A DNA stretch of 41,462 bases, from positions 1-41,462 of the forward strand of contig JAJRSX010000036.1 in assembly GCA_024278555.1 (NCBI GenBank). The letters are read 5' to 3'. A program made the translations under genes and the position numbers. The DNA comes from a bacterium (GTDB lineage Bacteria > CG2-30-53-67 > CG2-30-70-394). The notes below the pieces were generated by a model. That model saw only the letters and a list, made by a program, of their open reading frames with translations. It made no database searches and was not told the DNA's origin. Of the stretch, positions 14,508 to 19,838 are shown piece after piece; the stretch's first letter is position 1; the number at the start of each line of letters is the position of its first letter.

Positions 14508-14524
14508 TGGCATGAATATTGCTA
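14508..14524 (+). promoter_or_regulatory. Sigma-54-type promoter of the kinase/Wzz-recombinase operon
   Basis: TGGCAT-GAATA-TTGCTA matches the -24/-12 consensus TGGCAC-N5-TTGCW with the invariant GG and GC 12 bases apart. It sits in an AT-rich island about 115 bases before the first gene of the operon at 14638. Transcription should start near 14535. Confidence 0.75.
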
Positions 14525-14637
14525 TAAAATATTTTCACATCCGCATGGGTCTATCGGTGCGGATCGGTTCGTGAGCCAGGGGGGCGTGCTGCGCCACAGT
14601 CGTCCCGAGGTTACATCCAGGGCGAGGTGCGAAAAAA

Positions 14638-16236
14638 ATGGGAGGAGGTGTGCCACAGGAGTTTCACGACTCACACCACGGCCTCGGCTTTCTGGCCGCG
14701 GTCCTCGACAGCATCGACGACGCGATCGTCGTCATCGACCGGCAGTTCACCATCCGCTGGTCCAACCGCGCCTTCCGGCTGGAGACCGGGAGGGGCAGGG
14801 GGGAGGTGGTGGGGAGCCGGTGTCACGAGGTCTCCCACCACCTGGACAGACCGTGTGACGAGCATGGCTCCTCCGGTGCCGGGGGACACGCCGGCGACTG
14901 TCCCATCAAGGAGGTCTTCGCCACCGGTCTGTCGCAGGAGGTGATGCACACCCACTACGACGGCGACAACAAGCCGCGCTACGTGGAGATCAAGGCGTAC
15001 CCGGTGCGGGGCGGCAGCGGTGAGGTCGACTACGCCATCGAGGTGATCAAGGACGTGACCCAGCGGGTCCACCTGGAGGAGGAGCTGCGCCACGCCCAGA
15101 AGATGGAGGCGGTGGGCCTCCTGGTGGGCGGCGTGGCCCACGATTTCAACAACATGCTCACGGCCATCACCGGCTACGGGGAGCTGCTGCAGATCGACGT
15201 GGAGGAGGGGAGCACGGTCCACCTGGCGGTGGAGGAGATCCTCTCGGCGGCCGAGCGGGCCACCCGTCTGACCCGCAGCCTCCTCGCCTTCAGCCACAAG
15301 GTGCGGACCGAGGTCGGGGTCGTCAATCTGAACGAGATCCTTCGCTCCATCGACAAGCTCCTGCGTCGCATCCTGGGGGAGGACGTGGTGTTCGACGTCT
15401 CTCTGCAGGAGGGGGAGATCCCCATCCTCGCGGATCGCTACCAGATCGAGCAGGTGGTGATGAACCTCGCCGCCAATGCGCGCGATGCCATGGCCGCCGG
15501 CGACCGCTTCGCGGTGGCCACCGAGGTGGCAATGTTCACACGGGAGGAGGCGTACGTGTGCGGCCTCACCGACAGCGGGAGCTACGGCATCCTCTCGGTG
15601 AGCGACACGGGCACGGGGATCGATGAGGAGACCCGCGCGCGCATCTTCGAGCCCTTTTTCACCACCAAACCACGGGACAAGGGGACCGGTCTCGGCCTCT
15701 CCATGGTCTCCCGGATCGTCGCCAACCACGGCGGTCAGGTCTCGGTGGAGAGCCGCCAGGGGCTCGGGACGACCTTTCGTATCATCCTGCCCCTGTGGCA
15801 GGGAGATCCGGTGGAGCTGTCCCGGCCGGAGGTCGACGAGGAGGCCCTGCCCGTGGGGGCGGGCGAGACCATCCTGGTGGGCGAGGACGATGTCGCCGTG
15901 CGCCGGCTGCTGGTACAGATCCTGGAGGCGTACGGGTACCAGGTGGTGGTCGCCCGCAACGGTGCGGATGTGCTGGCAAATTGCCGTGAGCGGGGGGACG
16001 GGATCGACCTCTACATCCTCGACGTGGTGATGCCGGGCAAGGGGGGGGAGGCGATCCTTCGCGACATTCGCCTGATGCAGCCGGCGGCGCGGGTGCTCTT
16101 CGTCAGCGGCTACCCCGAGGAGGTCCTCTTCCAACGCGGTTTCCCGACCGCCGAGAACGCCTTGCTGGTAAAGCCCGTTTCGCGTGCCGTCCTGCTGCGC
16201 AAGGTGCGGGAGATGCTCGGTGCCCGTGTCGGGTAG
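14638..16236 (+). CDS. Hybrid histidine kinase, PAS-HisKA-HATPase-receiver
   Basis: A 532-residue soluble hybrid sensor kinase with no transmembrane segment. Residues 15-140 are a PAS domain with an unusual Cys/His cluster (C62, H66, C73, C88 within CHEV, RPCDE and DCPIKEV), a variant that recurs in deltaproteobacterial kinases. The dimerisation/phosphoacceptor box GGVAHDFNN has H168, and the ATPase domain has [26 protein letters not shown] and GTGLGLS. The C-terminal receiver (about 410-530) has GEDD, D462 in LDVVMPG and the Lys in LVKPVS. There is no output domain, so signal must pass to another phosphotransfer or regulator protein. ATG 14638 is the first start in frame. The next gene overlaps the stop by 17 bases, implying translational coupling within an operon driven from 14508. 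Confidence 0.93.
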
Positions 16237-17863: not shown

Positions 17864-19801
17864 ATGGAGATCATCGACGTCATCCTGGAGACCGTCACGC
17901 TCTTGCTCCTCGGCGTGATCGTCATGATCTCCTTTCGCGCCGGCCGCGATCCCGCGGTGAAGGAGGTGCCGGGCTACCGATGGCTGGTGGCCGGATTCGT
18001 CGTCCTCCTGATCGGCGCCCTGTTCGATCTCTCGGATAACTTCACCGGCCTCAACCGTCTCGTCATCTTCGGGAAGACGCCGGCGGAGGCCTTCATCGAG
18101 AAGTTTTGCGGCAATGTCACGGGCTACCTCTGCCTCGCATGGGGGCTCTTGAAGGCGCAGGGGATCGTGGAGCGGCTGCGGCGCGCCCAGATCCGGTTGG
18201 AGCGAGAGCGGTCGTCTCTCTTGGCGGAGAGTCGGGCGCGCAGCGCCGTGGAGGAATCCCTGCGTGCCAGCGAGGCGCGTTACCGGGCGATCACTGATAC
18301 GACGCGGGATTCGATCCTCATCCTCGACCACAAGGGCAGGATCGCCTACGCCAACCCCGCCACCGCCCGGAACTTCGGCTGGCCCGTCGAGGAGCTCCTC
18401 GGTCGCGACCTCCATCGGATGCTGGCACCGCGTCGGTACCGTGCCGACTTTCAAGACGCTTTTGTTCGTTTTCAGGCTGCCGGCGTGGGAGACGTCGTGG
18501 GGCGGACGGTGGAGGTCGCGGCCCTGCACAAAGAGGGGCACGAGATCCCCATCGAGGTGTCGATCTCCCCCATCGAGATGGAGGGCCACTGGGGTGCCGT
18601 CGGCATTGTCCGCGACATCTCGGAGCGCAAGGAGGCGGAGGCGGAGAGGCACCGTGTCCACGGGCAGCTCATGCAGGCACAGAAGATGGAGGCGATCGGC
18701 ACCCTGGCCGGGGGAATTGTCCACGACTTCAACAACCTCCTCACCGCCATCGTCGGCCTCGCCCATCTCGCCCTCGCGCGTACAGACAGTCCCGTTGCCA
18801 CCGACGACCTGAAGAAGCTCCTCCGTACCACGGATCGCGCCAAGGCGTTGGTGGCGCGGATCCTCACCTTCAGCCGCCGGCGGGAGATCCATGCCGAGCG
18901 GCTGGCGCTACGTCCCCTGGTCATGGAGGTCGTCGGCCTCCTCCACGCCACCGTGCCGCCGAACATCGAGGTGGCTGCCCATTTTGACTGCGATGAGTGC
19001 AACGTGGCGGCGGATGAGACGCAGATGCAGCAGGTGTTGATGAACCTGTGCACCAACGCGGTCCAGGCGATGGGCGAGGAGGGCCACCTGGAGATCGGCC
19101 TCACGATCATCGAGCTCAAGGAGGAGGAGATCGACGCGGCGAGCTCGGCGACGCCCGGTCGCTATCTCCACATCACGGTCAAGGACGATGGCCCGGGCAT
19201 GACGCCGGAGGTCCGTGACCGGATCTTCGAGCCCTTCTTCACCACCAAGGGGCCGGGGGAGGGGACCGGCCTCGGCCTCTCGGTGGTCCACGGCATCATC
19301 CGCGGCCACCACGGCATGGTGCGGGTGGAGAGCGCGGTGGGCGCCGGCACCACCTTCCACATCGACCTGCCGGCGATCGGCGAGGATGGATCAAGGCCGG
19401 CCGGGCCTCCCCGGCGGGCGGTGATCCCGCGTGGCGACGAGAGAATCCTCTTGGTGGATGACGAGGAGGTCCTCCTCGATGTGGGGCGGCGGCAGCTCGA
19501 GCTCTTGGGTTATCGGGTCACCACCGCCGCGGACGGCCAGGCGGCGCTCACCCGGCTCGACGAGCCGGGCGGCGACATCGACCTGATGATCACCGACCGG
19601 TCGATGCCGGGGATGGCTGGCGAGGAGGTCGCGCGTGCGGCCCACGAGACCCATCCTGCCCTGCCGATCATTCTCACCACCGGCCGCGACCCGCACCTCT
19701 CGGAGGCGGCTCTCGCGAGCGCCGGTATTCGTCTCATCCTCCCCAAGCCCCACTCCCTGGCCGACCTTGCCCAGAGTATCCGCGCGGTTCTTGACGCCTG
19801 A
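17864..19801 (+). CDS. Membrane hybrid histidine kinase, PAS-HisKA-HATPase-receiver
   Basis: A 645-residue sensor kinase. Two or three hydrophobic segments occupy residues 5-97 (VTLLLLGVIVMISF, WLVAGFVVLLIGALF, and a weaker one near 85-97). A short coiled coil (about 100-135) leads to a PAS domain (about 136-258). HisKA has GGIVHDFNN with H287, the ATPase domain has [25 protein letters not shown] and GTGLGLSVVHG, and the receiver near the C-terminus has LLVDDEE, Asp in MITDRSMPG and Lys in ILPKPHS. Its ATG abuts the stop of the Wzz-recombinase fusion gene, so the two are translationally coupled. As with the first kinase of the operon there is no output domain. The hairpin at 19806-19838 closes the operon. 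Confidence 0.93.
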   Translation: MEIIDVILETVTLLLLGVIVMISFRAGRDPAVKEVPGYRWLVAGFVVLLIGALFDLSDNFTGLNRLVIFGKTPAEAFIEKFCGNVTGYLCLAWGLLKAQGIVERLRRAQIRLERERSSLLAESRARSAVEESLRASEARYRAITDTTRDSILILDHKGRIAYANPATARNFGWPVEELLGRDLHRMLAPRRYRADFQDAFVRFQAAGVGDVVGRTVEVAALHKEGHEIPIEVSISPIEMEGHWGAVGIVRDISERKEAEAERHRVHGQLMQAQKMEAIGTLAGGIVHDFNNLLTAIVGLAHLALARTDSPVATDDLKKLLRTTDRAKALVARILTFSRRREIHAERLALRPLVMEVVGLLHATVPPNIEVAAHFDCDECNVAADETQMQQVLMNLCTNAVQAMGEEGHLEIGLTIIELKEEEIDAASSATPGRYLHITVKDDGPGMTPEVRDRIFEPFFTTKGPGEGTGLGLSVVHGIIRGHHGMVRVESAVGAGTTFHIDLPAIGEDGSRPAGPPRRAVIPRGDERILLVDDEEVLLDVGRRQLELLGYRVTTAADGQAALTRLDEPGGDIDLMITDRSMPGMAGEEVARAAHETHPALPIILTTGRDPHLSEAALASAGIRLILPKPHSLADLAQSIRAVLDA

Positions 19802-19805
19802 CGCA

Positions 19806-19838
19806 AAAAGGCCCCACCGCTTTCGCGGTGGGGCCTTC
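19806..19838. terminator. Bidirectional intrinsic terminator
   Basis: A perfect 13-bp stem (AAGGCCCCACCGC / GCGGTGGGGCCTT) with a TTTC loop lies between convergent genes. The AAAAA before the left arm gives a T-tract on the minus strand, so it is canonical for the 19873-20661 gene; in the plus direction it ends the kinase operon with only a short T stretch. Confidence 0.88.

Follow-up and report, generated by a model that had tools for sequence, protein, structure and literature searches.

The window, that is, the whole 41,462-nt stretch of DNA analysed here, contains a compact group of three genes (Table 1), the second of which is predicted to encode a polysaccharide co-polymerase (PCP) of the Wzz/GumC type carrying a tyrosine-recombinase catalytic domain at the position where its relatives have a cytoplasmic tyrosine-kinase (BYK) domain. 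By alignment this recombinase domain is catalytically dead. A Wzz-recombinase fusion had been proposed for the middle gene in a preliminary description of this DNA and is borne out by profile comparison of both halves of the protein. The sole homologue of the whole fusion that could be found, at 42% identity, belongs to the congener Nitrospirae bacterium CG2_30_70_394, and the fusion has thus been found in only one genus in the searches so far. A literature search of limited scope revealed no described Wzz-recombinase fusion. PCPs are thought to work through assembly cycles driven by a tyrosine kinase.

The three genes are packed as had been described, all on the plus strand, with a 17-bp overlap between genes 1 and 2 and a gap of zero between genes 2 and 3. 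The -24/-12 promoter reported upstream was also recovered, as a perfect site 115 bp before the start of gene 1. Since the sigma-54 pattern has 26 matches in the 3.06-Mb genome, mostly upstream of long open frames, versus none with the reversed control, this motif is taken to be meaningful rather than a chance occurrence. A palindrome and a further copy of ATGGCGCA are positioned 121-156 bp 5′ of the -24 box; palindromes of this class number 27 in the genome and 26 in controls and are hence not enriched, so that 14352-14387 is at most a tentative candidate activator site. The strong hairpin said to close the operon is real (-35.1 kcal/mol for a 61-nt segment, z -5.5). It lies, however, between convergent genes, the next gene being at 19873-20661 on the minus strand, and its T-run (TTTTT) sits on the minus strand, favouring that gene; it is therefore better regarded as a shared or opposite-strand terminator than as a textbook operon terminator. 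A leader RNA or riboswitch was ruled out, as Rfam gave no match and the stability of the leader was not above that of shuffles. Judging from this layout, genes 1-3 probably form one transcription unit, and the kinases encoded by genes 1 and 3 are likely to be co-expressed with gene 2 in the window species.

Table 1. Predicted features of the three-gene unit and its flanks (positions in the window)
Feature	Position	Strand	Description
Gene 1	14638-16236	+	Soluble hybrid histidine kinase, PAS-HisKA-HATPase_c-REC, 532 aa, CckA/VirA-like kinase core
Gene 2	16220-17863	+	547 aa, two-TM Wzz/GumC-type co-polymerase with C-terminal dead tyrosine-recombinase catalytic domain
Gene 3	17864-19801	+	645 aa, membrane hybrid histidine kinase: N-terminal TM sensor-PAS-HisKA-HATPase_c-REC
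Gene 2 residues ~29-281	16304-17062	+	TM1 (~29-51), periplasmic Wzz-type region (~52-258), TM2 (~259-281)
Gene 2 residues 327-524	17198-17791	+	Pseudo-recombinase domain, pI 5.5
-24/-12 (sigma-54) promoter TGGCATGAATATTGCT	14508-14523	+	0 mismatches; predicted transcription start about 14534
Perfect palindrome GCGCCATATGGCGC; second ATGGCGCA copy	14352-14365; 14380-14387	.	Candidate enhancer (activator) site
13-bp hairpin	19808-19837	.	Terminator between convergent genes; fold calculation and direct reading

The N-terminal half of gene 2 scored only 11.7 bits against Pfam Wzz as a single sequence, which is below the cut-off, and the relationship reaches significance only in profile comparisons. 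Alignment with hhalign against seven PCPs gave a probability of 96.4% (E 1e-9) for the window protein alone, spanning TM1 and the Wzz domain, and 99.8% (E 1e-27) when it was paired with the congener protein, the match then extending from TM1 to slightly beyond TM2. The two-sequence profile in turn matched PCPs in seven unrelated genomes with E values of about 1e-11 to 1e-13; a BYK P-loop domain follows TM2 in six of these seven PCPs, several of which also have a Tyr-rich tail. As in PCP-2a proteins (Wzc/ExoP/GumC-type PCPs with a BY-kinase; PF02706), two TM segments flank a Wzz-type periplasmic domain and are followed by a cytoplasmic C-terminal domain. In gene 2, by contrast, that predicted cytoplasmic domain is a dead tyrosine-recombinase domain, and both the Walker A P-loop and the Tyr-rich tail are absent, there being no GK dipeptide and the protein ending in ...GEWTVGARWEG. 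Overall, these comparisons clearly place the N-terminal half in the Wzz/GumC-type PCP family. Counting against a PCP reading is the length of the periplasmic part, about 207 aa in the window copy versus 355 in the congener. The main weakness of this reading is that neither copy is flanked by a glycosyltransferase/Wzx/Wzy cluster. Of the tie to exopolysaccharide export suggested in the preliminary description, the link to the PCP family is upheld. Three further recognisable Wzz genes are present in the genome.

The C-terminal half gave a probability of 98.5% in hhalign against six recombinases and resembles XerA/XerD models, with E values of 0.002-0.02 against solved recombinases such as XerD; matches to PHROG integrases point the same way. 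Profile comparison thus assigns it to the catalytic-domain family of XerC/XerD/XerA (PF00589). Unlike these enzymes, gene 2 is membrane-anchored and acidic, lacks a core-binding domain, and has lost four residues of the six-residue catalytic set R-K-H-R-H/W-Y, a loss that the alignment shows in both known copies. In the window copy Arg-I is replaced by T378, the Lys is absent, His-II is replaced by G467 and His-III by L493, with Arg-II (R470) and the Tyr (Y502) retained; across the two copies T replaces Arg-I, no Lys is present, His-II has become G or S and His-III L or P, and Arg-II and the Tyr are retained. A functional recombinase was ruled out by these losses. The N-terminal SAM-like core-binding domain is missing from gene 2, where only about 45 residues separate TM2 from the catalytic domain. 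The domain has a pI of 5.5 in the window copy and 5.3 in the congener (net charge -5 to -6), compared with 10.0-10.6 in three of four real recombinases and 7.3 in the fourth. Because the catalytic residues are lost, the core-binding domain is missing and the domain is acidic, a role in DNA binding is unlikely, as is a nucleic-acid-type function of the fold previously placed at the membrane.

Conservation between the two copies is highest at the end of this domain, with 75% identity over residues 464-524, including the tail PPGPGL.LE.VDLTPPG, versus 34-38% elsewhere. Since these last 60 residues are so well preserved, the domain is probably under selection for a role other than recombination. 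AlphaFold models built from the two-row alignment were of low confidence (pLDDT 44.5 and 54.0), and a fold search with such a model was non-significant, its six best matches all being Xer recombinases. A still-visible mobile-element origin was ruled out, matches to PHROG integrases being weak (E 1e-5 to 1e-6) and a search of viral contigs empty.

The products of genes 1 and 3 both showed PAS, HisKA, HATPase_c and C-terminal receiver domains in a family-domain scan, which detected no DNA-binding or enzymatic output domain in either, in agreement with the preliminary description. By direct reading, the phospho-acceptor His, the receiver motifs LDVVMPG and TDRSMPG, and the Lys in VKP and PKP are all present. 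The two are 32% identical. The trio had been described as a membrane signalling module; of the two kinases only gene 3 is membrane-bound, via its N-terminal part, and the hydropathy of gene 1 is that of a soluble protein. Apart from the protein itself, no match among the phylum's eight genomes extended over the N-terminal ~73 residues of gene 3, which make up its membrane sensor. Both proteins share the domain order of CckA/VirA-like hybrid histidine kinases, from which they differ in their sensor parts; their kinase cores resemble the CckA/VirA/PRK13557 models with scores far below the curated cut-offs. A similar kinase core occurs at about nine places in the genome. The best relatives of gene 1 are in another family of the same class, in unrelated neighbourhoods. 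An anti-phage defence system was ruled out, as PADLOC matched only the receiver domains and nothing in gene 2. As neither kinase has an output domain, phosphoryl groups would be passed on to a protein encoded at another locus, or else the receivers would act by binding. Such a phosphorelay partner could indeed be encoded elsewhere, given that eight Hpt domains lie within long open frames of the genome; frames of about 650-1160 aa with Hpt domains were noted at G000:C25, C60, C86, C171 and C184.

Based on the homology of its two halves, we tentatively propose, with slightly less than even confidence, that gene 2 encodes a PCP of the Wzc/GumC kind in which a recombinase catalytic domain has taken the place of the BYK domain and now serves as a pseudo-enzyme scaffold. 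The exchange would have taken place in an ancestor of the genus, with catalysis lost afterwards. The pseudo-recombinase domain would lie at the cytoplasmic base of the PCP ring, where it may work by protein binding and set the assembly state of the PCP without Tyr phosphorylation; this state would in turn affect polymer length or export, a mode of action also proposed for EcpK, a pseudokinase that acts on the PCP EpsV. In Myxococcus xanthus, a dead cytoplasmic PCP partner of this sort can be important for polysaccharide synthesis (PMC12004946). EpsV/EcpK thus shares with gene 2 a catalytically dead cytoplasmic partner proposed to be a scaffold, but EcpK is a free-standing protein of kinase fold, whereas the dead domain of gene 2 is fused and of recombinase origin. 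Gene 2 is probably co-transcribed with the two hybrid histidine kinases from the sigma-54 promoter, and PCP and sensors would therefore be made together; that the kinases control the PCP directly is a guess. A bolder version, in which gene 2 typifies a new PCP subfamily whose dead recombinase domain replaces the BY-kinase, and whose assembly and polymer export are set by His-Asp signalling through the two co-expressed kinases instead of Tyr phosphorylation, is on balance unlikely. Dead kinases such as EcpK already hint that phosphorylation is dispensable for PCPs. If the scaffold reading were true, a PCP with a dead domain of unrelated origin would independently support the view that a partner for binding or scaffolding is all that is required, and gene 2 would represent a recombinase domain co-opted at the membrane for a task unrelated to DNA.

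A serious alternative, though a rather doubtful one, is that gene 2 is a non-polysaccharide envelope adaptor, a PCP-shaped trans-membrane scaffold that serves a different export machine, such as RND efflux, or a stress response, while the kinases sense the envelope. It draws on the congener, in which the fusion follows a block of TetR, outer-membrane factor (OMF), membrane-fusion protein (MFP) and RND genes, the last three named by reading translations rather than by family search, and also on the lack of polysaccharide genes near either copy. Furthermore, with three other recognisable Wzz genes in the genome the standard PCP role may be filled already. Weighing against it are the clear PCP relationship and the 508-bp gap between the RND gene and the fusion, which makes their co-transcription doubtful. 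Directly downstream of the congener fusion (L011:2902-3570 region) we also observed a frame resembling a multihaem c-type cytochrome, in which CxxCH occurs several times.

The preliminary description had considered the three genes a self-contained module and had suggested looking for a conserved kinase-fusion-kinase order in other genomes. In the congener, source of the only homologue, neither kinase genes on the 18-kb contig nor a sigma-54 site at the fusion were detected, an outcome that the preliminary description had itself named as refuting its reading if homologues never lie next to hybrid kinases; full-length counterparts of gene 1 or gene 3 were sought in this genome without success. 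The fusion was not found in six other members of the phylum, apparently a small and separate one since only eight genomes represented it in our searches, nor by a two-sequence profile search of 378 further genomes. Among 84,980 species genomes, a pattern scan based on two short peptides, which divergent copies can escape, returned the congener only. Where hybrid kinases occur in tandem at other sites in the phylum (G003:C81, G004:C6), they do not enclose a PCP. A conserved kinase-fusion-kinase module was accordingly rejected, no homologue having been found beside kinases in these genomes and the arrangement occurring in one species only. This restriction to one species, together with the missing kinase counterparts in the congener, is what would be expected if the fusion were a lineage relic lying accidentally between two kinases without joint function; such a chance assembly is nevertheless distinctly improbable, as copies in two different species retain the domain with its 75% identical C-terminal motif, and the overlapping or abutting genes and perfect promoter point to selected co-expression.

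It is very unlikely that gene 2 acts as a DNA-binding regulator tethered to the membrane, one that has lost catalysis and supplies the output missing from both kinases: MrpR, the SP-beta prophage repressor, is a solved precedent for a dead recombinase fold recruited to another job (PMC10516654), but this DNA binder retains its core-binding domain, Lys and Tyr, whereas gene 2 has neither core-binding domain nor Lys, carries an acidic domain and is not expected to bind DNA.

The PEP-CTERM-type site GTCTCANNNTGAGAC was absent 5′ of the three-gene operon, whose membership in a PEP-CTERM regulon was thereby ruled out. Elsewhere, a PEP-CTERM sigma-54 regulon outside Proteobacteria was apparent at 23664-23792 of the window and at genome sites L017, L021, L023, L028 and L031. 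Four of five PEP-CTERM genes with perfect -24/-12 sites have an upstream GTCTCANNNTGAGAC site with at most one mismatch (none in L023), against 0/100 shuffles each. A 2006 paper had found the PEP-CTERM motif pair only in Proteobacteria (PMC1569441). At the start of the contig, 235-1614 encodes a sigma-54-activating response regulator that is NtrC/AtoC/PrsR-like and below all curated cut-offs; 0.4 kb 3′ of it, a perfect sigma-54 site (2010-2025) lies ahead of a VTT-domain gene. Lastly, a radical-SAM/SPASM part and an ArsM-like methyltransferase are fused in one frame at 6762-9416, which is followed at 9674-10471 by a TIGR04282 arsenosugar-type glycosyltransferase.
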